Positions 44,310-59,476 of a stretch of DNA of 64,000 nucleotides are shown in pieces. Source of the DNA: an uncultured Pelagibacteraceae bacterium (lineage in GTDB: Bacteria > Pseudomonadota > Alphaproteobacteria > Pelagibacterales > Pelagibacteraceae). Position 1 is the stretch's first letter. Each line of letters begins with the position of its first letter. Both the position numbers and the translations under genes were made by a program. The stretch covers positions 1 through 64,000 of the forward strand of contig CACJRL010000003.1 in assembly GCA_902595815.1 (NCBI GenBank), written 5' to 3'. Under the pieces are notes generated by a model. It was not told where the DNA came from, ran no database searches, and saw only the letters and a list, made by a program, of their open reading frames with translations.

Positions 44310-44337
44310 TTGAATCTATTGAGTTTGGTTTTATATT
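44310..44337 (+). promoter_or_regulatory. Promoter for the tmRNA gene
   Basis: TTGAAT (44310-44315) and TATATT (44332-44337) have a 16-base spacer and lie just before the first structured element of the acceptor piece (GTTGG TTTT CCAAC hairpin at 44344-44357). The placement fits a tmRNA promoter. Confidence 0.55.
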
Positions 44338-44343
44338 ATTAAT

Positions 44344-44602
44344 GTTGGTTTTCCAACTATGACGATAAACGAATTTCGTAATAACCATTACGGACGTGGG
44401 GGCAGTACCCACCACCTCCACCATTTTCAACTTATGGGGGTGAATTAGGATCGACGGGTGACTAAAAGTTATTCTTTCGTTCGGTATTGTTCCGCCGTGA
44501 AGGGCTAATTTATAAATGCTAACGAAAGTTACGCACTTGCAGCTTAATTAATTTATTAATTAAGTTACGGGGTTTGGGGCACCTGGCAACAGAACGCCCC
44601 CC
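44344..44602 (+). ncRNA. ssrA: Circularly permuted (two-piece) tmRNA
   Basis: The acceptor half comes first: T-arm GTGGG-GGCAGTA-CCCAC (44396-44412), acceptor strand CACCTCC (44413-44419), discriminator A and an encoded CCA at 44421-44423. After a 12-base spacer that should be removed, the 5' half begins GGGGGTG (44436-44442), which pairs with CACCTCC over 7 bases with one G-U. The conserved tmRNA start (GAATTAGGATCGACGGG) follows. The tag frame runs 44518-44547 and reads ANESYALAA then stop, with GCT as resume codon. A G-rich/C-rich pairing near the end (44576-44600) is probably the last helix. The outer boundaries are approximate. The order is that of alphaproteobacterial permuted ssrA. Confidence 0.9.
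44588..44600 (+). repeat. attL core in ssrA
   Basis: AACAGAACGCCCC lies within the terminal part of the tmRNA coding piece and is identical to the 13 bases at 59360. Identity extends to GG three bases upstream (15 of 16 positions), so insertion keeps the end of the RNA gene nearly intact. Confidence 0.8.
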
Positions 44603-44641
44603 TAAAATTAAATTCTCTTTAATCCACGCGACAAATTGTAT

Positions 44642-44693
44642 TTTACGCAACTAAGAACTCCACTAAGAACTACTAAGAACTAAATTGCGTAAA
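44642..44693 (+). repeat. Three ACTAAGAACT repeats inside an inverted repeat (probable integrase arm sites)
   Basis: Copies lie at 44650-44659, 44662-44671 and 44672-44681. A perfect 9-base inverted repeat, TTTACGCAA (44642-44650) and TTGCGTAAA (44685-44693), encloses them. Two more copies lie at the other end of the island. This fits accessory binding sites for the integrase or a directionality factor. Confidence 0.65.
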
Positions 44694-45150: not shown

Positions 45151-45282
45151 ATGAACAAGATTAAACAACTAATCCAGAAACTAGAAAGAGAAAAAGAACC
45201 AATAGATAAACTAATGTTACTCCAACAGATGAATAAAGAACTAGAACTAATTAAAAAAGACTTACTTAAGAAGATTAAATGA
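45151..45282 (+). CDS. Small Lys/Glu-rich protein of unknown function
   Basis: The ATG at 45151 has an AGAGG ribosome binding site 6 bases upstream, so I prefer it to an upstream start that would run through the hairpin. The 43-aa product (MNKIKQLIQKLEREKE start) is predicted to be one long amphipathic helix, probably a coiled coil. Its stop overlaps the next start as ATGA. No family is recognised. Its position near the left end of the island makes a role in excision or replication control conceivable, but nothing in the sequence shows it. Confidence 0.5.
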   Translation: MNKIKQLIQKLEREKEPIDKLMLLQQMNKELELIKKDLLKKIK

Positions 45283-45530
45283 AACTAGATAACACAATTA
45301 AAAACATATTAAGTTCAAAAGAAGCAGAAACTGAATATGAAGAATTATTATCTAACTTTAGTATTTTAAATAATGACGAATTAAAAGACGCAAGAACTGC
45401 TATTCTTGGTGATTATATTAACTCTAGTTTTCATATTAGAAGAATTACCAAGTATGCAAATGCAATTATTAATCAGTTAATGAATAATAAAGATTACAAA
45501 GTCAAAAAGACTAAAGTTGAAATCTATTAA
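45279..45530 (+). CDS. Small protein of unknown function
   Basis: This 83-aa, mostly helical protein (SSKEAETEYEELLSNFSIL, NDELKDARTAILGDYINSSF) is coupled by an ATGA overlap to the 43-aa gene before it. It has no signal peptide, membrane span or cysteine. I recognise no domain. The pair forms a tiny operon at the left end of the island. Confidence 0.55.
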   Translation: MKLDNTIKNILSSKEAETEYEELLSNFSILNNDELKDARTAILGDYINSSFHIRRITKYANAIINQLMNNKDYKVKKTKVEIY

Positions 45531-45658
45531 ATCTGCGTCTGGAGTGGTGATTTATTCAAATACGATAGATATTACTTATTTTTGATATTCATTAAAATTT
45601 GAATACTCCTAGTCAGTTTGCCAACTATAACAAACACACTTTTAAAAAGGAAAATACA

Positions 45659-45829
45659 ATGTGGTCAGTTACAAGAGAAAATTTAGACAAAACTCGTAAA
45701 ATCAATGTCAACTTTACAATAGACAAACATCTATACGAACAATTTAAAAAAGTTGCACAAAAAGATATGCGTAAATACTCAAATATCGTGGAAGGCAGTA
45801 TTCGTAGGTATGTGCGTTCAAAATTATAG
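45659..45829 (+). CDS. Small ribbon-helix-helix-like protein
   Basis: From the ATG at 45659, preceded by AAAAAGGA at good spacing, the product is 56 aa. An upstream TTG at 45599 would add 20 unlikely residues. The pattern RKINVNFTIDKHLYEQFKKVAQKDMRKYSNIVEGSIRRYVRSKL fits an MetJ/Arc-type ribbon-helix-helix: a short beta strand with alternating residues, then two helices. Such proteins are DNA-binding regulators. It could control island genes or serve as a recombination directionality factor; the target is unknown. Confidence 0.6.
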   Translation: MWSVTRENLDKTRKINVNFTIDKHLYEQFKKVAQKDMRKYSNIVEGSIRRYVRSKL

Positions 45830-46156
45830 TTTTTTTATTTTATTTTTTATTCTTTTGAAATCTTCTTCAACTTTATATAATTCTTGTTCTGCTTTACTCC
45901 TGATATAATTTTCATCTATTTTGGTTATAGTTATTTTAGATGGTTGAGTATCAAAACAAATTTCATCTTCAACTTTTGGTTTTCCATCTGTAAGAAAATA
46001 TGCTTCTAAGAACTTTTGAATTTGTTTCTGTTGATGAACAAACTTATAAAAATTCCCCATTGGATTTAAACTTTTAGATAGTGGTTTTCTTTTAAAACTA
46101 TAATGAACTTTATAGTCTTGGACTACAATTGCAGAGTAACATAGTTGATTTTTCAT
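45824..46156 (-). CDS. Hypothetical protein of the island
   Basis: This 110-aa protein has a strong ribosome binding site (AAGGAG, 5 bases before ATG on the minus strand). The N-terminal half is basic and aromatic (YKVHYSFKRKPLSKS, FYKFVHQQKQIQKFLEAYF) and the C-terminus is a charged helix. The 3' end overlaps the convergent ribbon-helix-helix gene by 6 bases. No family is recognised and no signal peptide or membrane span is seen. Confidence 0.55.
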   Translation of the reverse strand: MKNQLCYSAIVVQDYKVHYSFKRKPLSKSLNPMGNFYKFVHQQKQIQKFLEAYFLTDGKPKVEDEICFDTQPSKITITKIDENYIRSKAEQELYKVEEDFKRIKNKIKKL

Positions 46157-46181
46157 TTTTCTCCTTTAGCGTTATTATTTT

Positions 46182-46313
46182 ATGTCTGAAGCAAGTAGAG
46201 TTATTTCTAAATCACAGACATTTTTAATATATCATATTAAAAATATTTTACCAGTCCTTGAAAAACAAAAAATTGTTCCCAAATATAATATTGTTAACCT
46301 TCTTAAAAAATAA
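46182..46313 (+). CDS. Possible 43-aa protein
   Basis: ATG at 46182 opens a 43-aa frame (MSEASRVISKSQTFLIYHIK start) ending at TAA 46313, filling most of the gap before the next gene. The composition looks protein-like, with a hydrophobic-basic helix. No ribosome binding site is visible, so the call is weak. Confidence 0.3.
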   Translation: MSEASRVISKSQTFLIYHIKNILPVLEKQKIVPKYNIVNLLKK

Positions 46314-46330
46314 AAAACTCAATTACATTT

Positions 46331-46666
46331 ATGGACAAAACTAATCTACCGAAAGGTTGGAAATACGAAATATTTGATGAAATAGAAAATCCAATCGCAA
46401 AATATTATTCATCATTAACTGATTATGGAGATATGATTAAATTCTCCAATATTACACTTCCTAAAACTAGCAATATATTTGCTGAATTTGATGACTACAT
46501 AAACATCAAAAAAGAAGACTTAAAAGGAATTACTTTTGAACAACTATTGTTCTATTTAAAAAACATTGAACCAAAAGAAAAACAATCAAAAAAAGATTGT
46601 TTAATTCAATTGTTAAATAAAAATCAAATCAAATATGAGGAAGGATTGTGGGATGAAGCAATTTAA
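46331..46666 (+). CDS. Hypothetical protein of the island
   Basis: This 111-aa acidic protein ends in a helix-extended-helix-like segment (LKGITFEQLLFYLKNIEPKEKQSKKDCLIQLLNKNQI) that resembles SAP or LEM-type nucleic acid binding folds by pattern only. It overlaps the following gene by 14 bases, suggesting co-expression. No catalytic motif is recognised. Confidence 0.5.
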   Translation: MDKTNLPKGWKYEIFDEIENPIAKYYSSLTDYGDMIKFSNITLPKTSNIFAEFDDYINIKKEDLKGITFEQLLFYLKNIEPKEKQSKKDCLIQLLNKNQIKYEEGLWDEAI

Positions 46667-47006
46667 TATGGTTGATTGTAATCTTGAGAAAAGTACTGAC
46701 TTAAAAATCCTAAACTTTAACTCTAATTATATCAGTATGTTAATTGTTACTGAGAAATCTTATGTCTATGCAGAAAAGTACTACAAAAATCGTGAACTAC
46801 AATCTTGTTTAACAATAGAAATATTTAAAGAACAAAGAAGAACAGAAGTAAATTATCATCGTGTTAAATATTTAATATTTTCAAATCTAGTTGAATATAA
46901 TGAATTTGATGAAGCAGAATTTCTAAACACTTTAAGAAAAAAAAGAATTTATTTTCATAGATGGTATGAAAAAGGTGGGGTAATTAATACTTCGACGCAA
47001 TTATGA
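46653..47006 (+). CDS. Hypothetical protein of the island
   Basis: The ATG at 46653 follows AGGAAGG and is preferred over an ATG at 46635, which lies upstream of that ribosome binding site. The 117-aa product is alpha/beta with many Tyr, Arg and Lys residues (YVYAEKYYKNRELQSC, NYHRVKYLIFSN). It overlaps the previous gene and lies 43 bases before the probable restriction endonuclease, so it may be in that operon. I do not recognise a family. Confidence 0.5.
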   Translation: MKQFNMVDCNLEKSTDLKILNFNSNYISMLIVTEKSYVYAEKYYKNRELQSCLTIEIFKEQRRTEVNYHRVKYLIFSNLVEYNEFDEAEFLNTLRKKRIYFHRWYEKGGVINTSTQL

Positions 47007-47049
47007 TGATAAATTGGATTTTCTTAAATAACTTTGCTAGATTTCTTAT

Positions 47050-48438
47050 GTGTCAAACACTAATGATAATCTTTGGATTTTATTTGAAGAAAGACCTAAG
47101 GTAGAGGTAATAAAAAAAATTCTTCAAATTTATGCTGAGGATAATGACCATAAAATTGATGCAAAAAATATTAAAATTAGACCTATTTTTAAAAATAACA
47201 ATTTTCAATTCTGTTACGAGATAGAAAATTGTAAAATTTCTAACATAGAAAAAATATCTTTATTTTTAGTTAGCGGTTATTCAAGTTTTGTAGATTTCTT
47301 ACTTTTTAAATCAAAAACAAAACCACCAGAAAATGATAATCTTAAAAACTGCCTATATGGCATAGAAGAAACTAAAACAGATAGTTCGGAATCCAGAAAT
47401 ACTGCCGCTGGTCAACGAGGCACTAAATTTATTTTTTTAGATTATTTCAAACTTTTATCATCTAACTCAGACTTAAAAAAATTAATGATGTACAATAATT
47501 TAGATACTCAAAATGAAGTTGAAGCGGAGTCTGTTAAATTCATTAAAAGATGTTTAATTACAAATGGTATTAAATTTTATGGAGATTATTCTGATAATTA
47601 TAAAAAATTTCAAAATATTGATGATCTAATAAACTCAAAAAATAATTTAAGACAACCACCTAAAGGAAATACTCCTGTAAGATTAATAAAAAAAAATGAT
47701 ATTATTGAAATTTCAGGAATTCTCTCAAAACCTAGCACTAAAGGAAATATAGGACACGATCCTAATCAAGGTCAATTAATTACAATTTCAGACACATTAA
47801 GAAAATTAGGTTGGCAAAAAAAAATTCTAATAACTAAACATAAGGTTAAACAAAATTATATTAACAAAGCACGAGGCAATAAATTTATGTTTGCAATGAA
47901 AATTTTAAATATGGAACTTGAAAAAATAGACACTCCTCAAATAAATATTCCAAAAAATTATTGGTACTATGAAAATACTGGAGAAAAAGTTGCTTCAATT
48001 TTGTTACACTTAATTTGTAATTATTTAAATTTTAAATCAATTTATGAAAATCATGCTGGATCAGAAAGAGGTTATTTTTATACCCCAAATAGAACTGAAA
48101 TAGTGGTTAATAAAAAATATAATGGTGAAAATATTAACTTACCAGATTATGTTTTTTCTGATGAAGAAACTAAAACTATTTTTATTTGTGAAGGTGAAAT
48201 GTTTAGTAATTATAAAAAAGGGATAGAACAATTAGAGGGTTTTGATCTTTTTATTAATCTATATATAAAAAAATATTTTCCTAAATATACAATAATTAAA
48301 TCAATAATATTGTCAGATGCAAATTCTAATCAATGTTTAGATAAAACAATCTTTCAATTAAATAAAAATGGTCAAATTGTTCATGGGAATAGTTTACCAA
48401 AAAAAATTATTGAATTTTTAAATGGAAATCATAATTAA
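47050..48438 (+). CDS. Probable type II restriction endonuclease
   Basis: This 462-aa protein starts at GTG. Two nuclease-like signatures are seen: CLYGIEETKTDSSESRNTAAGQRGTKF (about 105-131), with acidic residues and Lys after a strand, and LPDYVFSDEETKTIFICEGEMFSNYKKG (about 362-389), which has the PD-(D/E)XK arrangement of PD, then a strand ending in E-x-E. Two DNA methyltransferases lie nearby on the other strand and a second PD-(D/E)XK gene overlaps its end. This fits a restriction enzyme. I cannot name a recognition site. The fold assignment is inference from motif and context. Confidence 0.65.
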   Translation: MSNTNDNLWILFEERPKVEVIKKILQIYAEDNDHKIDAKNIKIRPIFKNNNFQFCYEIENCKISNIEKISLFLVSGYSSFVDFLLFKSKTKPPENDNLKNCLYGIEETKTDSSESRNTAAGQRGTKFIFLDYFKLLSSNSDLKKLMMYNNLDTQNEVEAESVKFIKRCLITNGIKFYGDYSDNYKKFQNIDDLINSKNNLRQPPKGNTPVRLIKKNDIIEISGILSKPSTKGNIGHDPNQGQLITISDTLRKLGWQKKILITKHKVKQNYINKARGNKFMFAMKILNMELEKIDTPQINIPKNYWYYENTGEKVASILLHLICNYLNFKSIYENHAGSERGYFYTPNRTEIVVNKKYNGENINLPDYVFSDEETKTIFICEGEMFSNYKKGIEQLEGFDLFINLYIKKYFPKYTIIKSIILSDANSNQCLDKTIFQLNKNGQIVHGNSLPKKIIEFLNGNHN

Positions 48439-48946
48439 AAAAGATTTAATTAAAGAAGCACTAGAATATGCTCAATTATCAAAATCTTTTACTTCCGATA
48501 CACATGATTTTCATGAAGGTGGTTTAAATGCCAAACAAAGAAAAATGTTTGAGGGAAAACTAGGCGAAAAAGGCGTTAAACAATTTTTTATTGCAAACAA
48601 TATCAATTTTAAAGAAGATGAAAGTAGTCATAAAGATGCTGATGAATATGACTTTATTATTTTTGGTACTTCGCAAAAGTATTTTGTAGATATTAAAACC
48701 AGAACTCAAAAATTTCACATAAGAACTTTAGAAATGGTAAAACAACTAAAAAGAAAAAAAATAGATATTTACATTTCAGTAAAATTAACAAATCAAAAAA
48801 ATGATTATAAAATTAAGATTATTGGTTGGTGTACAAAGCAAGATATTTTAAAAATTAATAGAATAGAAAATAATGGATATTTAGATAACTATGTAATGTT
48901 TGATAATGAATTAAGAAATATCAATGATTTAAAATCATTCTTTTAA
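48422..48946 (+). CDS. PD-(D/E)XK nuclease-like protein
   Basis: This 174-aa protein has the fold signature GKLGEKGVKQFF (helix with conserved Glu), DADEYDFIIFG (motif II Asp) and YFVDIKTRTQ, giving D...D-I-K, close to the archetypal PD-(D/E)XK active site. The gene overlaps the preceding probable restriction enzyme by 17 bases. It may be a second nuclease subunit or an accessory nuclease. It converges with the methyltransferase gene, overlapping by 12 bases. Confidence 0.65.
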   Translation: MEIIIKKDLIKEALEYAQLSKSFTSDTHDFHEGGLNAKQRKMFEGKLGEKGVKQFFIANNINFKEDESSHKDADEYDFIIFGTSQKYFVDIKTRTQKFHIRTLEMVKQLKRKKIDIYISVKLTNQKNDYKIKIIGWCTKQDILKINRIENNGYLDNYVMFDNELRNINDLKSFF

Positions 48947-50068
48947 TTTTTTTCTGAAAAACATTATATATTGATGAAGTTGATTAGAAACAAAACTATG
49001 AGGGTACCCATAAGGATATAAATTAATGGACTCATCTGCCCAAATTTTCATACCAATATAATTTAAACCTTCAATTTTATTTATTTCTTCAATTAAATCT
49101 GAGTGTAATAAATTAGTTTTACCTTCTTTAGGTTGTAGATCTTTAATGAATACAACATAATGTCCCCTATCTTTTAAATAAGGCATTGAATATTTAATTG
49201 TTTCAATGAATTTTTCTCTAAATTCAATCCAATTCATATTTCCAAGATCTTTTTTATTTTTTGTAAATGGAGTTGCGTCTGTAGATTGATTTTTTTTTAT
49301 TGCTTCTCCAGTTTTTTCTCTATTCATCATATCTCCATATGGAGGGTCTATTGCAATTAATGAAAATTTTTTATTATTTAAATATTCTTCAATAAGTTTT
49401 TTGTTTTTAAGCACCTCTATACAATCACCTTTTATTGTAGTTTGTTCTTTCAGTTTTAATTCTTTATTTGCTTTTTTATATGCACTAATAAATTTTGAAC
49501 TTAAATCTATTCCTAGAGCATTTCTATTTGACAATGACGCTCCTAACAATGTTCCGCCAACGCCCATAAAATAATCTAAAATATGTTCATTTTCTTTTGT
49601 GAAAAATTTTATTATATCCCTCATCAATTGAGGTGGTTTAGGTGATGGATGTATCTTTCTTATATGATGAGCATATCCCTCTTCACCAGAAGTTAAATAT
49701 CTTGTGTTAATTACTGATCTTAAAAAATAACTCCACTCATTCCCTGCTAAATCATTTAACTTATTATCAAGATGAAATTTTTGACCATTTTTAGTTAAAA
49801 TAACTTTTTTTGAATTACCAACTACTTTGCAATCTTTCAAATTTTTCTTAATCCAGTTAGGCATCTTGTTGATTTGTTCCTTACTGAGAATTTTTAAATC
49901 ATATTTTTTTTCAAGAAGGTCTAATTGTTCTTTTCTTTTTTTATTTTTATCTCTTTTTTTTAATTCATTAACTTTTCTTAAAATTTCTTTGCTTAATTCA
50001 TCAATATCTTTATTTGATAATTTACTTTTTAATATTTCTTGAAGTTTTTTTTTATCAATTAAATTCAT
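48935..50068 (-). CDS. DNA methyltransferase (N4/N6 type, PF01555-like)
   Basis: This 377-aa protein has an N-terminal Lys-rich coiled region (1-70), then a motif X-like HPSPKPPQLMRDIIKFF, motif I as LDYFMGVGGTLLGA, LGIDLSSKF (motif II), GDCIEVL (motif III) and motif IV as AIDPPYGDMM. The order X-I-IV is normal for alpha or gamma class amino-methyltransferases. It should methylate adenine or cytosine N4 to protect the host from the adjacent nuclease. It starts in the stop of the second methyltransferase (TAATG), so the two are cotranscribed. Confidence 0.85.
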   Translation of the reverse strand: MNLIDKKKLQEILKSKLSNKDIDELSKEILRKVNELKKRDKNKKRKEQLDLLEKKYDLKILSKEQINKMPNWIKKNLKDCKVVGNSKKVILTKNGQKFHLDNKLNDLAGNEWSYFLRSVINTRYLTSGEEGYAHHIRKIHPSPKPPQLMRDIIKFFTKENEHILDYFMGVGGTLLGASLSNRNALGIDLSSKFISAYKKANKELKLKEQTTIKGDCIEVLKNKKLIEEYLNNKKFSLIAIDPPYGDMMNREKTGEAIKKNQSTDATPFTKNKKDLGNMNWIEFREKFIETIKYSMPYLKDRGHYVVFIKDLQPKEGKTNLLHSDLIEEINKIEGLNYIGMKIWADESINLYPYGYPHSFVSNQLHQYIMFFRKKLKE

Positions 50069-51087
50069 TATTTTTTATCTATTATATGAATAAGTTCATA
50101 AAGTTTATGTTTATTATTCATTTTTTTATCTTTTTTATACCTTCTGTAATCAATTCTGTATTTTTTAAAAAGTTTTTTTGAATATTTTTTCAGCAACTTT
50201 TCTAATTTTTTTTCAGTTATAATTCCTTCTGAGTTATAACTTAATATGATGTACTTAAAATTTGCATTTTCAACTAAACTTTCCAAAGCATCTTCGGCAA
50301 AAGATTTATTACAAAAATTAGATTTTTGATTTTTGTACTCTCTAATACCAGTCTTGCCTCTAATGATCGGGTCATCATATTTTGCAATTGTTTCTAGCAA
50401 ATGGTAATTTGGTAAATATTGCCTACTATTATAAGGAGGATCTAGATAAAGTATATCGCCTTCAATTTTTTTTATTAATTTATTACAATCCTCATTATAA
50501 CTTTTGTTATTTTTTTTATTATCAATAATATTTAAAGGTTTTAATTCAATTTTTTTATAACTTCTTTTGTCCCAATTTTTCAAATATGCACCATAAGTTC
50601 CTGCTATATTGGAAACAAATGGAGTTGCTTCAATCACCAGAGATACTAAGTAAAAATATTCAAGATCATTAATCTTTTTTTCACTTAACCATTTTTCAAA
50701 ATTAATTCTTAAACCATCAATTAATTTTGCATTTTCTTTAGATAAATATTTCCTATTTTCTTTTCCTCCGGGTGAATAATTTTTAAATACAAAACCATTA
50801 TGTGAAATATTCAGATTATTAAGATGTTCTTCAATTTCTGAACTTATTTTTAAATTTTTAAAATTTGGTTTATTGTTTAATTCCAAATACGATTTTTGAA
50901 GGCAATAAGAAAAGTACAAAAGATCGTTAGATATTATTTTATATTTATTTTTAAAGTATTGAGAAACTATTGTTGTTCCAGAAAAAATATCACAAAAAGT
51001 ATCTAACTTATCATAATTTATAATATTTTGACTTATCGCGTAATCAATATTTTTAAGAAGTAATCTTTTAGAACCTATAAATCTCAT
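50068..51087 (-). CDS. DNA adenine methyltransferase (D12/Dam class)
   Basis: This 339-aa protein has FIGSKRLLLKNI (motif X, residues 3-14), FCDIFSGTTIVSQYF (motif I), and ILYLDPPYNSRQYLPNYHLLETI (motif IV DPPY), the pattern of D12-class N6-adenine methyltransferases. The C-terminus is strongly basic, which fits DNA binding. It is the second methyltransferase of the cluster. Two different enzymes would be expected if the recognition sequence is asymmetric. It is 26 bases downstream of the nuclease-helicase gene. Confidence 0.87.
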   Translation of the reverse strand: MRFIGSKRLLLKNIDYAISQNIINYDKLDTFCDIFSGTTIVSQYFKNKYKIISNDLLYFSYCLQKSYLELNNKPNFKNLKISSEIEEHLNNLNISHNGFVFKNYSPGGKENRKYLSKENAKLIDGLRINFEKWLSEKKINDLEYFYLVSLVIEATPFVSNIAGTYGAYLKNWDKRSYKKIELKPLNIIDNKKNNKSYNEDCNKLIKKIEGDILYLDPPYNSRQYLPNYHLLETIAKYDDPIIRGKTGIREYKNQKSNFCNKSFAEDALESLVENANFKYIILSYNSEGIITEKKLEKLLKKYSKKLFKKYRIDYRRYKKDKKMNNKHKLYELIHIIDKK

Positions 51088-51113
51088 AATTTATAAATAT
51101 ACCTTAATAAATC

Positions 51114-54100
51114 TTAAATCTTATAATTTAAAAATTTAAAAAAATTATTCATTAGTTTTATGTGATCTAAGTTTTTTGGCGAAGTATCTAATAATTTTGG
51201 GTTAAAAAGAATTATTGAAGCAACCTGTGCTCTAGAAATTGCAACATTTAATCTATTTCTACTAAAAAAGAATTCTTTATTTCTAGGTAGGGAATCATTA
51301 TCTGATGAAGTCATAGAAATAATAGTTATTGGTGCTTCTTGTCCCTGAAATTTGTCAATAGTTCCTACTCTAGGACTCTTAATCTTTGCTTCTTCTAATT
51401 TAGAAATTAAGAGATTAACTTGTGTATTGTATGGACTAATAATTAGAAAATCATCAACGGTTAATTTTCTTTTTTTACCATTATCATCAAAATCACTTCC
51501 TATTAATTGTTGCATTAAATCTTTTACCACTTCAAACTCTTCAATACTTGTTTGAACATTATTTTTATGATCCATTTGGATGTAGTGAATTCCATCTTTT
51601 TTAATTAAAGATTTTTTGTCAAATTTAATTATTCTCTGATCTGTTCTTTCATCACAGACTAGTCTTTCTTCATAAAAATTTGATGAAATAAAATCATTTA
51701 TTTTTGAATTTAATCTATAAGTTTTATTTAAAAATATTCCTCTATCTTCTGGAATTGTGTCTTTACCTTCTAAAAGATAATCTAAAATTGATTGACCGGA
51801 CTCGTTAGGATGTGTTCCTCTTATTGGTTGTCCTAATTGATTTTGGTCTCCTATTAAAACTATATTTTTTGCTATATTACCTATGCTAATTAAATCTGCT
51901 AAACTTACTTGTCCTGCCTCATCAATAAAAAGATAATCAATTTTCTCATCATAAAATGTACTTGCAAAATGATATTTGGTACCTGCAAATATCTGTCCGG
52001 TATTTTCTTCTTTTAAAGCGTCCATAAATACAGGATCTTTTTCATAAGTTTTTATAAACTCTCCATCAAAAACTGTATCCTCGTCCTCTAAATTTCCTCT
52101 TTTATATCCCTCAAACATAAATTTTTTCTCTTTTGCCATATCTTCAACTCTTTGAAGTAAGTTATGAATTACTTTGTGAGATAAACCAGTAATCGCAATC
52201 TTTTTATTTTGTTTTAATAATTCTATAATTGCATTAGATGCTTGAAAGGTTTTGCCAGTTCCAGGAGGTCCTTGAATATAAATATAACTATCCTCTAAAT
52301 CAGAAATAATTTTAGGAATTTCTTTACTAAAATCGTTAGATTTAATTATTTTTTCTCCAGTTTTTATTCCTTTAATATTTGGATGTTTTTTTTCAAGAAA
52401 GTCATTAAGTGCTTTATATTTTTTTTCATTATTAATTAATGTGTCAATAAATTTGTAAGTATTTAAAATGAGTTTAGTATTTGCTCTTGGTTTATCAGGT
52501 CCAATTGATAATAATTTTGGCAATAATCCTTGAGATTTGCCTCTCTTTAATAAAACTTCTTTTTTTTCATAATCAATATCTATAATTGTGCCCGCATAAT
52601 CATTTTGTTCAATATCATGATTATTTGCAATTACAGTTTTTTTACTTTTTCTTAATTTAAAATCCTGATCTTCAAATTTATATGAATATAGTAACGATCT
52701 TTTATCAGTAGTAGGTTCGCCATTTGACTTCATGTTTCCTATGCACTCAGGGTCATCAATTAATTCTTCGTCAGATTTTGTCCGTCTGTCAAAAAATTCT
52801 CTCCATGCAGGTTTGTCTTCACGATTATAAAAACCTATAATGTCAGTCATTAATTGTTTTATTTGTTTATTTTTAATTTTAGATTTTTCAACTTTATCTT
52901 GGTAAGTAATCATATCCACTTCCCAATCTCTTAGTTTCATTTCACTATCCTTTTTTTGTGAAACAAACCAAGATGTTTCTGAAGGTTTAATGTCCAACAA
53001 CCATTTATGAAGTTGGTAAGTAGAATTGCAATCTTGTTTATTGTAACTTTCTATCTCATCTAAAAAGTTTTGATCCTGAGTTTCTAACCATTCTATATAG
53101 TATTCTTGAGATGCATCTCCCCTTTGAACATCACCTTCTCTTTTAAACTTATAAAATTTTTCAACATTTTTAAGTGAGTAACTATTTTCTGAAATGAAAA
53201 GTCCTTGTCTATTTACCTCTAATAAATTTACAAATTTATCTAAGTTTAAATAGTGATCATATTCAATACCCTTGACTTTGTGAAATGAAGTTAGTTTTAA
53301 TAACGCAGTAATCTCATATGAACCATAATGATAAATTTTTGAGTTTGGATACTTTTTAAAATGAGATTTAGTAAAATCAAAAAATTTAACTAAGTTTTTC
53401 TTTTCTTCTTCTTTGCTATGAGACCATAATGCCTCAAATTTCTCTTTTCCATTTTCTATATAATAAATTCCGAATAAATATTCCAAACCTCCTGGATAGA
53501 TATGATCTTCAACACTTTCTATATCAAAGTACAAATCACATTCTGATGGTTCAGGTAATAAATTAAAACCTTTTATGCCATTTAAATTATTAGGATTTGG
53601 TTGGTGAATTGGGACATTTGTTTTTTCATACTCTTTTTGAAGTTTTGCTTGAGTGATTAACTTGTGTGATATTTCTTTTCTAAAACCTTTCAGAATTTTC
53701 TCTGGATTTTGTTTTGAAAGTTTAGTTGCTGTATCAATTTTAAGTTCTAGTAGTTTTTTTAAATGTACTTTAGTTAATCCACCAATTTGATTAAGATTAT
53801 CTTCTTTAATCCAGATTTTTTCGCATTCTTCTTGCCATTCGCAAGTACTACAAAAACTACACTTCTCCGGTCTTTGTTTATCTACTCCGTTACCGACAAA
53901 CTTCTCGTAATTTTCTCTATGAATTTTAAAAAACTCATTAACCTGATTTACCTGAATATCTTCCCTAACCATATTCTTTAAAACAATAGTAAATCTTTTT
54001 GGAAGAATACCTTGAGTATTCTCTAACATATATGTGTACATTCCTAATTGAATAATGTGATCTGGTTTTGGTTTATTTGAATATTTTGTGTCAATTACCT

Positions 54101-54476
54101 CATAACTATAATCACCAAATTTTGACTTCAGTTCTTTATTGATTATTAAAAAATCAAATTCTCCTGTCCATTTATCTTTCTTTAACCAACCACCATAAAT
54201 AATTTCCCAACCTTCCCTCATTGCTTGAATTGTTTTTGAGATCTTTTCTTCTCTAGTTAAATCAGACTTTTTTAAGTCTAATACTTTCTTGTGTGATTTT
54301 TTAAGTTCTTTTAGATAATCTTTTTCATGTTGATTACCTTTTTCAAATCTTAATTTGTCATTAATATTAAGTTCAATTTTTTTAAGATTTAATTTTTTTT
54401 CATTAATTTCATTAAAAATTATATACTTACAACCTAAGTATTTTTTTAACATTGTTGGAGAAAAAAGATTTTTCAT
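51114..54476 (-). CDS. RecB-like nuclease / DEDD exonuclease / SF1 helicase fusion (TM0106-like)
   Basis: This 1120-aa protein has three parts. Residues 1-225 form a Cas4/RecB-like PD-(D/E)XK nuclease with GEFDFLI (Asp108) and VIDTKYS (Asp129, Lys131), and cysteines C16, C206, C209, C212 and C218 that could bind a 4Fe-4S cluster. Residues about 310-495 resemble a DEDD RNase H-like exonuclease, with YFDIES (Asp318, Glu320 region) and NKQDCNSTY. Residues about 715-1120 form an SF1B helicase with Walker A GPPGTGKT (736-743), FIDEAGQ (851-857), GTIDKFQGQE and LNVAISRA. It probably processes DNA ends. It leads the operon with both methyltransferases, which suggests a defence role. Confidence 0.85.
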   Translation of the reverse strand: MKNLFSPTMLKKYLGCKYIIFNEINEKKLNLKKIELNINDKLRFEKGNQHEKDYLKELKKSHKKVLDLKKSDLTREEKISKTIQAMREGWEIIYGGWLKKDKWTGEFDFLIINKELKSKFGDYSYEVIDTKYSNKPKPDHIIQLGMYTYMLENTQGILPKRFTIVLKNMVREDIQVNQVNEFFKIHRENYEKFVGNGVDKQRPEKCSFCSTCEWQEECEKIWIKEDNLNQIGGLTKVHLKKLLELKIDTATKLSKQNPEKILKGFRKEISHKLITQAKLQKEYEKTNVPIHQPNPNNLNGIKGFNLLPEPSECDLYFDIESVEDHIYPGGLEYLFGIYYIENGKEKFEALWSHSKEEEKKNLVKFFDFTKSHFKKYPNSKIYHYGSYEITALLKLTSFHKVKGIEYDHYLNLDKFVNLLEVNRQGLFISENSYSLKNVEKFYKFKREGDVQRGDASQEYYIEWLETQDQNFLDEIESYNKQDCNSTYQLHKWLLDIKPSETSWFVSQKKDSEMKLRDWEVDMITYQDKVEKSKIKNKQIKQLMTDIIGFYNREDKPAWREFFDRRTKSDEELIDDPECIGNMKSNGEPTTDKRSLLYSYKFEDQDFKLRKSKKTVIANNHDIEQNDYAGTIIDIDYEKKEVLLKRGKSQGLLPKLLSIGPDKPRANTKLILNTYKFIDTLINNEKKYKALNDFLEKKHPNIKGIKTGEKIIKSNDFSKEIPKIISDLEDSYIYIQGPPGTGKTFQASNAIIELLKQNKKIAITGLSHKVIHNLLQRVEDMAKEKKFMFEGYKRGNLEDEDTVFDGEFIKTYEKDPVFMDALKEENTGQIFAGTKYHFASTFYDEKIDYLFIDEAGQVSLADLISIGNIAKNIVLIGDQNQLGQPIRGTHPNESGQSILDYLLEGKDTIPEDRGIFLNKTYRLNSKINDFISSNFYEERLVCDERTDQRIIKFDKKSLIKKDGIHYIQMDHKNNVQTSIEEFEVVKDLMQQLIGSDFDDNGKKRKLTVDDFLIISPYNTQVNLLISKLEEAKIKSPRVGTIDKFQGQEAPITIISMTSSDNDSLPRNKEFFFSRNRLNVAISRAQVASIILFNPKLLDTSPKNLDHIKLMNNFFKFLNYKI

Positions 54477-54565
54477 TTTTGAGTTTACTGAGTGTAAATT
54501 TGTAAAACTTTTATTTCAAGATATATAAACAAAATTTTACCACAAATTAATTTTAAATATCAAAA

Positions 54566-54745
54566 ATGATAAGTAATTTTTTTAATTGGTGTGTTTATGT
54601 TCTAGAGATAATAGGTGACTTAACTGGTATGGGATATGAATTAGCAAATATAGTAATATTTGTTATTCTACAACCTGCTCTAATACTATTATTTTTTGTT
54701 CTTTGGATATTGGAAAAGAAAAAAAATAATAAAATGAAATTCTAA
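54566..54745 (+). CDS. Small membrane protein with one hydrophobic helix
   Basis: ATG at 54566 opens a 59-aa frame: an amphipathic N-terminus (MISNFFNWCVYVLEIIGDLTGMGYE), a transmembrane helix (NIVIFVILQPALILLFFVLW) and a Lys-rich tail. I recall similar short proteins with this W-C-x-Y-V-L-x-x-I-G-D-x-T-G-x-x-Y-E pattern in marine bacteria, but no function is known to me. It stands alone between the minus-strand nuclease-helicase and the 122-aa gene. The gap of about 90 bases before it has room for a promoter. Confidence 0.65.
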   Translation: MISNFFNWCVYVLEIIGDLTGMGYELANIVIFVILQPALILLFFVLWILEKKKNNKMKF

Positions 54746-54792
54746 TAGCGTTATTGTTGCAAATGCGTCTATAACAATTGTTGAAAAACCTT

Positions 54793-55152
54793 TTAAAATT
54801 CTATCTTTGTACCAAATAAAATATTTAATTCTTTAATTAAGTCTTTAAAATTCTTAGGATAACTTTCGTGTCCCTCAATATGTTTTGCTTCGCCTTTTCT
54901 ATTTCTAAGTTTCAATTGCCATTGATAACCGTCTAAAATCTCATATTTTGGATTATAACTATTCTTCCATTTCCATATTCCAATTTGCTCAATTCTGTCC
55001 CAAAAAGATAAAATTTTATAATCAGGTACATCAACAATCTTCTCATTTTCATTAATGACTACCCTGCCTTTATTGTTTTCTAATAGTTCCACACTTTCAG
55101 GAGGCATCATTGAAAAACCGCTATAGAAAATAACTTCCTTTTTATTGGTCAT
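54793..55152 (-). CDS. Hypothetical protein
   Basis: From the ATG at 55152 (ATGACCAATAA overlap with the preceding gene; an ATG at 55161 adds three residues) the product is 119 aa. It has several Trp and Tyr residues (SFWDRIEQIGIWKWKNSY, GYQWQLKLRNRKG) and ends in a helix, DLIKELNILFGTKIEF. No domain is recognised and no membrane span is seen. Its coupling to the larger upstream gene suggests a joint function. Confidence 0.6.
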   Translation of the reverse strand: MTNKKEVIFYSGFSMMPPESVELLENNKGRVVINENEKIVDVPDYKILSFWDRIEQIGIWKWKNSYNPKYEILDGYQWQLKLRNRKGEAKHIEGHESYPKNFKDLIKELNILFGTKIEF

Positions 55153-55942
55153 AATTATCATTTAAAAAATGTGCCATTATTTCTGCTTCATCATTTTTAA
55201 AAACTGCCAATTGTGCTTGTTTTGGGTCTCTAACCAATAAATTTTTATGTGAATTCATGTTCCAAAAATTAACACTTCTCCATACAAAACACATTGCTTT
55301 ATTTTCGTTAACTCTTTTTTGAATATATTCATTAACTAATCTTTTGGTTAATTTACTTGATGGTAAATTATAAAGTTCGTCATTAGGTTTATTACAGGAA
55401 TGATAAGCAATAGATTCCACTACACACACAGATTGTTTTACATGCTCATAATTCTTTATAGAAGATTGATTATTAAGACTTGTTAAATATTTTGATATTT
55501 TAGATATTCTTCCTTTATTAGACCAATATCTAAAACCACCAGTGTTTATTGCTTCATCTTTAAGACAAGTAAAAGTCTTTGAATTTAAATTCAAATTTTC
55601 TTGTAATAATTCAATATATTTTCCATCTTCTATCTCATCAATATAATCACCTGTATGAAAACCAGGGTTTCCCATTAGAATATAAATTTTAGCATTTTCT
55701 ACATCACCAAAAAAAGGAACTACAAAAAGATTATTTAAAATCTTATTTTTATTTTGTTTATCATTTACAAATTTTTCTCTAGTTTTATCTGACTTTAAAT
55801 CTCTTCCATATTTTTTTCTTAGTTCTTCTATAGAAATTTCTAAACAATACTTTTGCTTATTTTGACCTAAAAAGATTTCGTCTTCAGGATGAAGTTTGTA
55901 TGGATTATACTCAGACCAAAAATTTTTCAGTTCTGAAATCAC
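55142..55942 (-). CDS. Hypothetical protein, possibly uracil-DNA-glycosylase-like fold
   Basis: This 266-aa protein starts at GTG in the stop of the GIY-YIG gene (TAGTG). Residues about 85-105 read KIYILMGNPGFHTGDYIDE, a strand followed by G-N-P-G, which resembles motif 1 of uracil-DNA glycosylases. A conserved-looking segment, MCFVWRSVNFW, lies near the C-terminus. The resemblance is short, so the fold is a guess. It is part of an operon with the GIY-YIG gene and the 119-aa gene. Confidence 0.55.
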   Translation of the reverse strand: MISELKNFWSEYNPYKLHPEDEIFLGQNKQKYCLEISIEELRKKYGRDLKSDKTREKFVNDKQNKNKILNNLFVVPFFGDVENAKIYILMGNPGFHTGDYIDEIEDGKYIELLQENLNLNSKTFTCLKDEAINTGGFRYWSNKGRISKISKYLTSLNNQSSIKNYEHVKQSVCVVESIAYHSCNKPNDELYNLPSSKLTKRLVNEYIQKRVNENKAMCFVWRSVNFWNMNSHKNLLVRDPKQAQLAVFKNDEAEIMAHFLNDNYDQ

Positions 55943-56550
55943 TATTTTTCAGAAACTAAATCTCTTAAAGTTCTTCCTTGATAACACCAATAACCTGCAC
56001 CTTGAACTTGACCCCAATCATAACCCATCTCATTTGTAATTAATAATGCCGAACCTGATAAAGAAGTTTCTTTACCTCTAAAAATCACTTTGCCATCATC
56101 TGCAACTTCACAAGTAATATTTTCATCTTTAGAAAAAGTGAGTGTTGTTCCTTTAGCAATTCCTAAAATTCCAAAGTAATCAATTCTTCCTCTTCTTTTT
56201 CTTGCATTATCTAATGCTTGTTTATCCTGTGGTGTTTCAACTACATCTTCAGTAGGCGTAACATTTTTACCACCCATTACTTCTGCGATTTCTAAAATTG
56301 CTTTTGCTTGCTCTGGTGATGTATTAAAAAACTCTCTATTTTGTCTTACTCTTTTATCGTCTAGACCTTCGTGTATTTTCTTTTCAATTACTTTTGCATC
56401 TTGAACTTCAACTGCATAATAACACTCAAAAGGAAGTGGAGTTGAAGTATTATCCAATTCTCTCATTCTTCTTTCTAAATTATCTGTAATACCAATCTTA
56501 ATAGTATCTGGCATAGATTGGTTGGTAAGGATGTAAACTATTTTAGACAT
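55942..56550 (-). CDS. GIY-YIG (T5orf172/MUG113-like) nuclease-domain protein
   Basis: This 202-aa protein starts MSKIVYILTNQSMPDTIKIGITDNLERRMRELD, which holds the Y-I-L and K-I-G-I-T strands and the Arg/Glu helix of a GIY-YIG fold of the T5orf172 type. Residues about 125-200 (YFGILGIAKGTTLTFSKDENI; WGQVQGAGYWCYQGRTL) resemble the DUF4357/RAMA-like C-terminal domains that often follow such nucleases. The protein may cut or bind DNA. It leads the three-gene minus-strand operon and lies 21 bases after the serine recombinase gene on the same strand. Confidence 0.75.
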   Translation of the reverse strand: MSKIVYILTNQSMPDTIKIGITDNLERRMRELDNTSTPLPFECYYAVEVQDAKVIEKKIHEGLDDKRVRQNREFFNTSPEQAKAILEIAEVMGGKNVTPTEDVVETPQDKQALDNARKRRGRIDYFGILGIAKGTTLTFSKDENITCEVADDGKVIFRGKETSLSGSALLITNEMGYDWGQVQGAGYWCYQGRTLRDLVSEK

Positions 56551-56571
56551 TCAATAGTTTAAAATTAAAAC

Positions 56572-57234
56572 TTAAAAATGTCTATTATGGTCTCTATTTA
56601 AAATCTTATGAACTTGCGGAAAATATATTCTTTTTCCATACTTATTCTTAATTTCATCAGATATTTGACGATACCCTAGTCCTGATTTTCTAAGACTAAT
56701 CATAGACTGCAACATCTTAAATTCTTTATCATCTGGGATTAATTTATTGTCTTTATCTACTTTATAACCAAACTCAGAATAACCACCTAAGTACCGTCTT
56801 TCTTGTTTTGCTATTTCTTTACTTGCTTTAATTCTCTCAGAAATATTTGTTCTTTCTATTTCTGCTAATGAAGCAAGAATAGTAATAAACACTTTAGAAA
56901 CTCCATCAGTATGCACATTGCCAATATCAGTAATACAAAGTTGATTATGTGATTTTTTAAAATCTTCTACTAACTGCAATGTTTGAAGAACTGACCTTGA
57001 TAATCTATCTAATCTACTAACAATTAATCTTCCATTAGACCCAAGTTCTTTTAAAACTTTTTGAAATACTTTTCTTTTTCTAAACTCTACTCCACCAGAA
57101 ACTATTTCAGAATAAACTTTATCAATTTTAAAACCATGAAGTTCAGAAAATGCTCTACATCTTTTTTCTTGTGTGTCTAAAGATGTGCCATTTAAACTTT
57201 CAATATGTGAAACTCGGATGTAAGCAATGTTCAT
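56572..57234 (-). CDS. Serine recombinase (resolvase/invertase family)
   Basis: This 220-aa protein has the catalytic serine in AYIRVSH (Ser9), the family motif SRLDRLSRSVLQTLQLVEDF, and ILASLAEIERTNISERIKASKE linking to a C-terminal helix-turn-helix (GLGYRQISDEIKNKYGKRIYFPQVHKIL). The size fits a resolvase/invertase rather than a large integrase. It may invert or resolve DNA within the island. It is divergent from the integrase operon across a 253-base gap. Confidence 0.9.
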   Translation of the reverse strand: MNIAYIRVSHIESLNGTSLDTQEKRCRAFSELHGFKIDKVYSEIVSGGVEFRKRKVFQKVLKELGSNGRLIVSRLDRLSRSVLQTLQLVEDFKKSHNQLCITDIGNVHTDGVSKVFITILASLAEIERTNISERIKASKEIAKQERRYLGGYSEFGYKVDKDNKLIPDDKEFKMLQSMISLRKSGLGYRQISDEIKNKYGKRIYFPQVHKILNRDHNRHF

Positions 57235-57296
57235 GGTTGGAATGGTAATGATGAAAATTAAAATGGCAAAAAAAATTTCTGGAATTCAAACCAGCA

Positions 57297-57325
57297 TTGA
57301 CATTTTTAAAGGGTTGTGATATATT
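57297..57325 (+). promoter_or_regulatory. Strong sigma-70 promoter of the integrase operon
   Basis: TTGACA (57297-57302) and TATATT (57320-57325) are separated by exactly 17 bases, the best consensus promoter I saw in the window. The transcript would have a leader of about 155 bases before the first gene at 57488. Confidence 0.75.
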
Positions 57326-57378
57326 AATAATATAGAGAAACACTACAAAATCCTAAATTCTCTATAGGACTTCACACT

Positions 57379-57405
57379 ATGGCAGACGCAAACACAAATG
57401 CTTAA
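57379..57405 (+). CDS. Possible 8-aa leader peptide
   Basis: ATG at 57379 opens MADANTNA then stop, in the leader of the integrase operon, 48 bases after the likely transcription start region. The stop lies inside a 20-base palindrome. A GGAC six to nine bases upstream is a weak ribosome site. It is only a candidate. Confidence 0.25.
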   Translation: MADANTNA

Positions 57406-57413
57406 GCATTTGT
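57394..57413. promoter_or_regulatory. Perfect 20-base palindrome in the integrase-operon leader
   Basis: ACAAATGCTTAAGCATTTGT is perfectly self-complementary. It lies about 70 bases after the -10 box and before the first gene. It is a good candidate operator for an island repressor or a site for the adjacent serine recombinase; as RNA it would form a hairpin. Confidence 0.5.
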
Positions 57414-57487
57414 AAATATAAACTAATTAATTTTGGTAACAGGATAGGTGTGTCTGATGTTTTGTTGCTAGAGAAAGTGAAGAAAAA

Positions 57488-57811
57488 ATGAAAAATAAGG
57501 AAGAAGAAAAATACATAAATGATTTTGGTGCTGAGCACATTGAATTCATTGCTGAACAATTTTCTGGTCGTGCAGAAAAAGATTTAGATAAATTCATAGA
57601 TTTAAGAGAAAACGAGTGGGAAGATAATCAGTTAATTCTTATGAACACTCTAGGTTTTTTATCTGAAATTTATGATGAAAGTGATGAAATGGAAAAAGAA
57701 AGAAGAGTTGTTTTAAAAACAACATTAGAAAAACTTTCTCGTTGGTATCAATTTGAAAAGAGAAAACAAGAACGATTAGATTATGAAAGAATAAATGGAG
57801 GAATAGTATAA
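57488..57811 (+). CDS. Small acidic helical protein of the integrase operon
   Basis: This 107-aa protein is strongly acidic in its first part and almost fully helical (AEHIEFIAEQFSGRAEKDLDKFIDL, YDESDEMEKERRVVLKTTLEKLSRWYQFEKRKQERLDYERI). Its stop overlaps the next ATG by one base. I recognise no family. With the 76-aa gene it precedes the integrase, a place where excision or partner control factors are often encoded. Confidence 0.6.
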   Translation: MKNKEEEKYINDFGAEHIEFIAEQFSGRAEKDLDKFIDLRENEWEDNQLILMNTLGFLSEIYDESDEMEKERRVVLKTTLEKLSRWYQFEKRKQERLDYERINGGIV

Positions 57812-58041
57812 TGAAAATATCTATTGAATTAGAAAAATCATTTTCAGACAAACTTGATGGGATGATTAAAGAGATAGAATACAACATACAAAAAAAGATG
57901 TCTGTTGAAGATTTGGCAAAGTATAAGAAGTATCCATTTCTCGCTACTTCTAAATCTGAAATCGTTGAAAGTTTAATTGGCGAAATTAAACTATCAACAG
58001 ATTTAAGACAAAGAATAATCAATCAACTATCAGAAGAATAA
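57811..58041 (+). CDS. Small protein of the integrase operon, possible DNA-binding or regulatory
   Basis: This 76-aa protein starts in the stop of the previous gene (TAATG). The N-terminal MKISIELEKSFSDKLDGMIKEIE has a short strand then a helix, vaguely ribbon-helix-helix-like, and LATSKSEIVESLIGEIKLSTDLRQRII continues as helices. No catalytic motif is present. A strong hairpin follows the gene. A role as an integrase partner is inferred from position. Confidence 0.55.
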   Translation: MKISIELEKSFSDKLDGMIKEIEYNIQKKMSVEDLAKYKKYPFLATSKSEIVESLIGEIKLSTDLRQRIINQLSEE

Positions 58042-58051
58042 AGTGAAATAT

Positions 58052-58085
58052 ATTGGTTCCCGCTTGAATAAAAGTGGGAACCAAT
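58052..58085 (+). terminator. Hairpin between the small genes and the integrase
   Basis: ATTGGTTCCCGCTT and AAGTGGGAACCAAT pair over 14 positions with one G-T mismatch, around GAATAA. It ends 17 bases before the integrase ATG and has no U-run. It could be a terminator, could reduce integrase translation, or could be a protein-binding site. Confidence 0.5.
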
Positions 58086-58102
58086 TAGCATAAAATTCAT
58101 TA

Positions 58103-59305
58103 ATGCCGAAAATACTAGAACAAAAAAAAATAGATAAGTACCCCATAAAACTTTTTAAGTATGTAAGAAGTCCATATTGGTGGTTTAGTTTCTTTGTTCA
58201 TAAATCATATTCAGCAAATGGAATGGAATATCAATCTTCAAAACTTAAAGATGTAAAAAAGGCAGAAGTATATTCAATTTCATATTTTAAGAAATTTAAC
58301 TTTGAAAAATATGAAAACTTTAAAACAAAACTAATACAAGATTTTCACAAAGATATTGCAGTTCCATACTTTAATGTCAGAAAACTAACAAATGAAAAAA
58401 GATATAAAAAAGAACTGGGTCAGTATAATAATGAAATACTTCCTCTATTTAAGGACATTGATTATTCAAATACTAGTGAAGTAGAAGAAAAAGTCAGTCA
58501 GTTATTTTATAATCTGAAAATCAAAGGTCTCGCAGTTGCAACTTGTAGAAATTACAAAATCATTATTTCTAACATGTTTAAAAAAGCACTTATGAATAAC
58601 AATATTCCATTTGATGTAATGCCAGAGTTTCCTAAACTTACAGGCAATTCAATTAGAAGACTTGCTTACTCTCCAAAAGAAACCAAACAAATAATCAACG
58701 CATTTAGAGATGAATACAGAACTAGAGAAGATATGTTTTATGATGAAGAAGCAGATTTTCTTTGCATGTTAAAATCTGCAGGTTTTAGACCTGGATTAGA
58801 ACTATTGAGAATTAAAAGAAATCATATTGGTTTTATTAATGACCCACTAAATCCTAATAAACCAATTATGAAAGTAACATTATTAGAAACAAAAAAAGAT
58901 AGACATACTCAAACCGTAGCAGATTGGTTTAGAGATGATGTATACCCAAGAATAGTTAATAGATACCCTAATGCCTCAGAACATGACTATCTGTTTTTTC
59001 CAAATGAAGAAAATAGACAAAAACTATTTAATAGAATTAGAAAGAACTTTATTAGAATATCAGACAAGATTGGTCTCTATGATGTGAATGGTCAAAAAAG
59101 ACCTATCTATACTTTCAGACATTCATTTATCTCAAATAGAAGAAGTAAAGAAGTTGACCCTAATATTGTTGCAATTCACTCAAACACTAGTGTCGCAATG
59201 ATTAATAAACACTACCAAGATTTATCAGATGATAATTTAGTAAATATCCATAATCAATTATATCCAGAAAGAACCAGAAAACAGAAAAGTACTAAGAACT
59301 ACTAA
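58103..59305 (+). CDS. int: Tyrosine recombinase / integrase
   Basis: This 400-aa integrase has an N-terminal SAM-like binding region (about 85-180) and a catalytic domain. Arg lies in KSAGFRPGLELLRI, Lys in TLLETKKDRHTQ, the H/Y-x-x-R motif in YTFRHSFIS (with Tyr in place of the first His), His in AIHSNTSVAMINKHY, and the nucleophile Tyr in the same segment. The gene ends 55 bases before attR, and its last codons are made of the ACTAAGAACT repeat. It should catalyse integration into ssrA. Confidence 0.9.
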   Translation: MPKILEQKKIDKYPIKLFKYVRSPYWWFSFFVHKSYSANGMEYQSSKLKDVKKAEVYSISYFKKFNFEKYENFKTKLIQDFHKDIAVPYFNVRKLTNEKRYKKELGQYNNEILPLFKDIDYSNTSEVEEKVSQLFYNLKIKGLAVATCRNYKIIISNMFKKALMNNNIPFDVMPEFPKLTGNSIRRLAYSPKETKQIINAFRDEYRTREDMFYDEEADFLCMLKSAGFRPGLELLRIKRNHIGFINDPLNPNKPIMKVTLLETKKDRHTQTVADWFRDDVYPRIVNRYPNASEHDYLFFPNEENRQKLFNRIRKNFIRISDKIGLYDVNGQKRPIYTFRHSFISNRRSKEVDPNIVAIHSNTSVAMINKHYQDLSDDNLVNIHNQLYPERTRKQKSTKNY

Positions 59306-59310
59306 GAACA
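59291..59310 (+). repeat. Two tandem ACTAAGAAC(T) repeats at the right end (probable arm sites)
   Basis: Copies at 59291-59300 and 59301-59310 (last base A) match the repeats at 44662-44681 over 19 consecutive bases in the same orientation. They overlap the stop codon of the integrase gene. Confidence 0.65.
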
Positions 59311-59359
59311 AAGTTTCAAAAAGTCTTATTTTCTAATATATTCCTTAAAAGATGCGGGA

Positions 59360-59372
59360 AACAGAACGCCCC
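59360..59372 (+). repeat. attR core
   Basis: AACAGAACGCCCC is identical to the 13 bases at the 3' end of ssrA. It lies 55 bases after the integrase stop and 18 bases before the tRNA-Leu gene, marking the right end of the island. Confidence 0.8.
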
Positions 59373-59390: not shown

Positions 59391-59476
59391 TGGTGCGGTC
59401 AGAGAGACTCGAACTCTCATGGGCTTGGCCCACACGGCCCTCAACCGTGCCTGTCTACCAGTTTCAGCATGACCGC
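59391..59476 (-). tRNA. tRNA-Leu (GAG)
   Basis: Read on the minus strand, acceptor GCGGTCA pairs with TGACCGC, discriminator A and an encoded CCA follow. The anticodon arm is CACGG-TTGAGGG-CCGTG with anticodon GAG. A long variable arm (GGGC-CAA-GCCC) marks class II tRNA-Leu, and the T-arm is GAGAG-TTCGAGT-CTCTC. It lies directly outside the island; the island uses ssrA, not this tRNA, as its site. Confidence 0.95.

Follow-up and report, generated by a model that had tools for sequence, protein, structure and literature searches.

Do three end-to-end genes of a Pelagibacterales (SAR11) genome, encoding a GIY-YIG nuclease, a 266-aa protein with a motif recalling uracil-DNA glycosylases (UDGs) and a short protein, constitute a single system directed against modified DNA, or are they separate genes that happen to adjoin? 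An earlier sequence-only reading of the window (the whole stretch of DNA analyzed, 64,000 nucleotides) described the three genes as coupled by overlaps and compared the association of a nuclease with a possible base-excision enzyme to systems that recognize modified DNA. The arrangement of the genes, the mobile element that carries them, the predicted folds of their products and the distribution of each family are considered below.

Gene arrangement and overlaps

All three open reading frames (ORFs) are found on the minus strand where the sequence-only reading had placed them (Table 1), and both of the overlaps it described are present in the sequence. The junction between the GIY-YIG and 266-aa genes is TAGTG, with a 1-nt overlap, while that between the 266-aa and 122-aa genes is ATGACCAATAA, with an overlap of 20 nt. 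An in-frame ATG inside ATGACCAATAA offers an alternative start for the short ORF, which would then encode 119 aa; the 122-aa protein contains four Trp residues. These overlaps are ordinary for the window and not in excess of expectation: among mechanically chosen ORFs of at least 80 aa, 20 of the 40 co-directional neighbor pairs overlap, and when pairs of the island are set aside the count is 15 of 29.

Table 1. Coordinates of the features discussed (positions in the window unless a locus is named)
Feature	Coordinates	Strand	Remarks
GIY-YIG nuclease (T5orf172), C-terminal domain RAMA-like	55942..56550	-	202 aa; PADLOC PDC-S57
266-aa protein, predicted UDG-like fold	55142..55942	-	GTG start; motif N92-P93-G94
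122-aa protein, weakly DUF6438-like	54793..55161	-	122 aa from first ATG
Serine recombinase adjoining the trio	56572..57234	-	
RecB-like nuclease-helicase of the island	51114..54476	-	1120 aa
Two DNA methyltransferases of the island	48935..51087	-	N6_N4 type and D12 type
Integrase of the island	58103..59305	+	phrog_1 integrase, E 5.8e-9; no Pfam match
tmRNA gene, left end of the island	44328..44638	+	ARAGORN
Left repeat GGCAACAGAACGCCCC	44585..44600	+	near-identical 16-bp repeat
Right repeat GGAAACAGAACGCCCC	59357..59372	+	near-identical 16-bp repeat
tRNA-Leu(gag)	59391-59476		
170-aa gene of other loci	L033 6704-7216; L034 8254-8766; L035 7934-8446		

The island at the tmRNA gene

The trio resides in an insert of 14.8 kb (44585-59372) located between the tmRNA gene and tRNA-Leu(gag), with a G+C content of 26.2% compared with 29.8% for the whole window. 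This insert is an integrase-bearing element inserted at the tmRNA gene, because it is bounded by 16-bp repeats and the site is uninterrupted in 11 of 29 relatives, where the flank matches overlap by approximately 16 bp. The comparison drew on 30 loci among the matches listed; once the window's own locus had been set aside, both flanks were compared with the remaining 29. Both flanks match in 12 of these relatives, including L052, in which about 640 bp separate the two matches; the right flank alone is matched in 17. The tRNA-Leu/nadA side itself has a match in 45 of the 46 genomes of the genus that were searched.

Another genome (L034, 8835-12203) encodes a copy of the island's nuclease-helicase with 90% identity, in the company of a GIY-YIG gene, an AlwI-type restriction enzyme and a gene that resembles a methyltransferase. 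In a search of 147 genomes of the order, 9, the window's own included, have a relative of the nuclease-helicase at E values up to 1e-100. A serine recombinase 33% identical to that of the window is encoded at 7346-8029 of L041, in the same stretch as a homologue of the 122-aa protein. In addition, a 59-aa membrane-type ORF (54566-54745, plus strand) lies between the 122-aa and helicase genes and resembles, by eye, two small ORFs that share 93% identity and are situated near GIY-YIG genes, one in L034 (7309-7485) and one in L036 (8197-8370).

The 266-aa protein

The 266-aa protein has no relevant match in Pfam, NCBIfam or PADLOC and a weak PHROG match only (E 0.0045), so that all four libraries leave its family without a name; one member of the family matches SduA in PADLOC (E 0.0034). 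The Pfam UDG model (PF03167) is absent at E values up to 1 for the protein itself and up to 10 for eight family sequences. When the family was compared by hhalign with 14 UDGs of the genus (motif-filtered ORFs out of 20 fetched UDG loci), the score of 19.7 was exceeded by 3 of 100 shuffles. Eight aligned sequences share the invariant residues N92-P93-G94, D99-Y100, W140, E176, Y180-H181-S182, R222 and W227, the first of which confirms as conserved the N-P-G of the G-N-P-G motif pointed out in the sequence-only reading.

A glycosylase fold had been set beforehand as a test of that reading, and the structural comparisons agree with it. The AlphaFold2 model, built on the 8-row alignment, has a pLDDT of 76.1 and a pTM of 0.80. 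In a Foldseek search of the PDB, the best 50 of 106 rows (E up to 10) are all uracil-DNA glycosylases, UdgX, MUG or TDG, with moderate scores (best E 0.019, TM about 0.3). VIA-align, applied to the Foldseek candidates, likewise assigns 50 of 50 among the matches listed to the UDG superfamily; its best match is 4zby, with rmsd 3.7 over 152 residues and a Z of 7.9, a range (below 8) that can reflect a common arrangement. Among viral models (BFVD), the matching rows include glycosylases (best E 0.16). A UDG-like fold is therefore probable for the model, and it is persuasive because no other fold occurs among the matches listed and because N92-P93-G94 comes after the core strand 86-90.

The first motif of the UDG superfamily consists of Asn, Asp or Glu beside Pro, after the first core strand, and a second, H-P-S-like motif lies near the C-terminus. 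The first is present in all eight sequences, whereas no invariant H-P-S follows R222 and W227 in their alignment. The first motif of MUG and TDG is of the N-P-G type, which is also the type found in the 266-aa protein. A predicted fold is thus what this protein has in common with family 4 UDGs and MUG/TDG; it differs from these members of PF03167 in that it lacks a match to the Pfam model and in that profile comparison with the UDGs of the genus does not rise above shuffles.

The Brig glycosylases offer a further comparison. Brig1 (261 aa) is similar in size to the 266-aa protein, and its best structural match is reported to be the same structure, the S. tokodaii family-4 UDG 4zby, with a DALI Z of 9.2 (PMC11078745). 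Brig3 requires N50, E55, W100 and D127 for defense, and its core is likened to alkyladenine glycosylase in its own paper (PMC13160076). The order N-P, aromatic residue, acidic residue is common to both proteins (N92-P93, Y139-W140 and E176 against N50-P51, W100 and D127 of Brig3), with differences in the first motif (N-P-G versus N50-P51-S52) and in the spacing from Trp to the acidic residue (36 versus 27 positions). The 266-aa protein may work as a Brig glycosylase does. A literature search linking the UDG superfamily, anti-phage activity and modified bases together gave no match.

The neighborhoods of 266-aa homologues are diverse. A 559-aa protein encoded in a fecal contig deposited as phage (L007, 3580-5259) has a member of the family as its C-terminal portion. 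In a Brocadiaceae genome (L032, 5758-7582), genes for an AAA_21 ATPase and a DUF4276 protein come after the homologue and together resemble a defense module. One SAR11 homologue (L026) is situated among genes that appear core-like by eye, with no defense context there. A 304-aa protein with a GQNPG motif adjoins homologues in L027 (5784-6698), where it overlaps the end of the homologue, and in L028 (6719-7633), where it lies about 0.9 kb away; one copy scanned has no Pfam match and hhalign found nothing for it, and it possibly represents a second glycosylase-like family.

The GIY-YIG protein and its C-terminal domain

The GIY-YIG protein matches T5orf172 (E 2.1e-20; 73.5 bits against a Pfam cut-off of 20) and, over nearly its full length (residues 2-201), the PADLOC candidate PDC-S57 (E 4.3e-69), on which no literature was found by name. 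R28, E56, H60 and E73 are invariant in seven sequences and are taken here to be the active-site positions. The structural model is poor (pLDDT 65, pTM 0.49); its PDB matches are led by GIY-YIG Slx1 enzymes, and a CcrM methyltransferase, found at E 0.89 and 1.9 among unrelated rows, carries little weight.

The C-terminal domain has no relevant Pfam match, and PF18755 (RAMA) is absent for six such domains at E values up to 10. Profile comparison with RAMA domains of genomes of the class nevertheless gives an hhalign score of 32.3 (probability 76%), compared with a maximum of 18.8 among 100 column-shuffled controls and with 11.6 for the reversed profile. The RAMA set came from 20 loci, one of which was cut out empty and another of which (L108) is an 18-residue fragment; without the empty row the score is still 32.3, and 100 new shuffles reach at most 19.9, the best of all 200. 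The domain thus appears to be RAMA-like, and the name is limited to this form because the Pfam RAMA model is unmatched. GIY-YIG-RAMA fusions are mentioned as possible readers of modified DNA in one paper, which also states that no confirmation could be obtained that MPND, a RAMA protein, prefers methylated DNA (PMC11037411). The wH-GIY-YIG modification-dependent nucleases described there similarly join a GIY-YIG nuclease to a candidate modified-DNA reader; in the present protein, by contrast, the candidate reader is RAMA-like and C-terminal, and cleavage of modified DNA is a prediction. The idea that the locus concerns modified DNA gains separate support because of this RAMA-like domain.

Relatives of the GIY-YIG protein are accompanied by an integrase, by restriction-modification genes or, in a phage, by a methyltransferase and an integrase. 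In three of the six other Pelagibacterales loci, the gene directly beside the GIY-YIG gene encodes a 170-aa protein, so a recurrent neighbor does exist, and it is not the 266-aa gene. Two scanned copies of the 170-aa gene have no Pfam match; by eye, its product is PD-(D/E)XK nuclease-like.

The 122-aa protein

The 122-aa protein has a weak, sub-threshold resemblance to DUF6438 (E 2.5e-4) and matches phrog_24571 (E 6.2e-7). A plasmid search with this protein gave no match. Our guess is that its gene is accessory and has no connection with the two larger ones.

Linkage and distribution of the three families

Profiles of all three families were run against the translations of 36 fetched loci, with flanks that vary, mostly between 4 and 7 kb, and that are shortened in some by contig ends (e.g., L040, L041 and L113). 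The 266-aa family occurs in 10 loci other than the window's (L026-L032, L006, L007 and L042), the GIY-YIG family in 13 distinct others (L033-L038, L113, of which L114 is a repeat, and L124-L129) and the 122-aa family in three (L039-L041). The sole fetched locus with at least two of the three families is L115, which is the window's own DNA: none of the 10 + 13 + 3 other loci holds two of them, and none of the families was detected in eight loci (L116-L123) fetched for the helicase. The trio is not a conserved unit in the loci examined, which goes against the conserved co-occurrence envisaged in the sequence-only reading, and a paired or three-part system was rejected on the grounds of this absent linkage. 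Together with the UDG-fold result, the absence of linkage therefore leaves the earlier hunch standing as two independent candidate genes, one with a predicted UDG-like fold and the other with a RAMA-like C-terminal domain, and not as one paired system.

Genome surveys, in each of which the window's own genome is included, give the same picture. Among genomes sampled from the order, 4 of 297 carry the 266-aa gene and 4 of 294 the 122-aa gene; a full-length relative of the GIY-YIG protein is encoded in 7 of 294, or 13 of 294 when matches to the GIY-YIG part alone are counted, and the six genomes that matched over this part only (query residues 4-94 at most) were left out of the neighborhood comparison. 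Apart from the window's genome, no genome is common to two of these three lists, which come from samples that may not be identical and in which many genomes are incomplete.

The 266-aa family appears patchy at a broader scale as well, being found in 2 of 289 genomes of the class, the window's own included. A copy of the 266-aa gene with 86% identity is present in a genome of the same genus. Members of the family are spread over SAR11, Rhizobium, Gemmobacter, Hymenobacter and Brocadiaceae, and occur on a plasmid and also in a contig labelled as phage. Sequence searches of the PDB returned nothing relevant. When viral contigs were scanned with the 266-aa protein or with alignments of its family, no relative was detected. 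The same was true of the GIY-YIG protein used alone; its alignment retrieved one relative, and rescanning with that relative returned the same contig only.

Alternative explanations

Cooperation between the two larger proteins, in which the 266-aa protein would create abasic sites in modified phage DNA, the nuclease would cut there and the short gene would be accessory, finds support in overlaps of 1 and 20 nt that suggest co-transcription and in the features suited to modified DNA in both proteins. It is nonetheless very improbable, given that no second family occurs in any of the other loci, that half of the co-directional neighbor pairs of the window overlap anyway and that the recurrent neighbor of the GIY-YIG gene is the 170-aa gene. 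A false resemblance in the glycosylase-like model is quite unlikely: Z below 8, E 0.019, the 8-row alignment and the lack of support from sequence profiles speak for it, whereas neither PDB comparison contains another fold among the matches listed and the invariant N-P-G comes after the core strand.

If the fold is genuine, the 266-aa protein might still be a repair enzyme, or another protein of UDG fold acting on uracil or damaged bases, with no role in defense. The predicted fold itself and the homologue among apparent core genes in L026 are compatible with such a function, which is unlikely in view of the rare and patchy distribution and the occurrence of the family on plasmid and phage-labelled DNA; moreover, an ordinary Pfam UDG is present in 24 of 24 genomes of the genus examined, so repair would not need the rare 266-aa gene. 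For the GIY-YIG protein, the competing view is that of a homing-type or mobility nuclease belonging to the island or to phages, with no role in defense. Relatives of T5orf172 are indeed common in phages (108 matching records, mostly over the GIY-YIG part), and a paper about nuclease genes located at boundaries of phage exchange uses the name T5orf172 82 times (PMC10448857). The full-length PDC-S57 match and the RAMA-like domain point away from this role, which is considered somewhat unlikely.

Proposed functions and biological meaning

The explanation judged on balance probable is that the island holds independent cassettes: a Brig-like base-excision enzyme and a GIY-YIG–RAMA-like nuclease, both with putative catalysis, substrates and defense roles, and a DUF6438-like gene. 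By chance, these adjoin one another in an integrative element of 14.8 kb at the tmRNA gene. The genes, their overlaps, the island and the lack of linkage among the examined loci are established directly; both folds, the UDG-like and the GIY-YIG–RAMA-like, are supported by prediction. The GIY-YIG protein would work alone, its RAMA-like domain binding modified DNA and its GIY-YIG domain cutting it in a manner similar to type IV restriction. The 266-aa protein would also work alone, as a DNA glycosylase of the UDG fold that would flip an unusual base, probably one of phage DNA, out of the helix and excise it; the abasic sites left behind would stop replication, in the way reported for Brig1 and Brig3.

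Of the three families, the 266-aa one deserves most attention: it is unnamed, has a predicted UDG-like fold and is patchily distributed. It is conceivable, though doubtful, that it represents a new, thinly spread branch of antiviral DNA glycosylases acting on a modified base of phage DNA; on that reading, base-excision immunity would exist in some of the most abundant bacteria of the ocean, and base-modified SAR11 phages would be implied. The island, through its insertion at the tmRNA gene, illustrates one route by which such genes enter a streamlined genome. Should the 266-aa family prove to be a defense glycosylase, base-excision immunity would extend beyond the Brig proteins into streamlined marine bacteria, and unusual bases would be predicted in the phages of those hosts, where they could be searched for.
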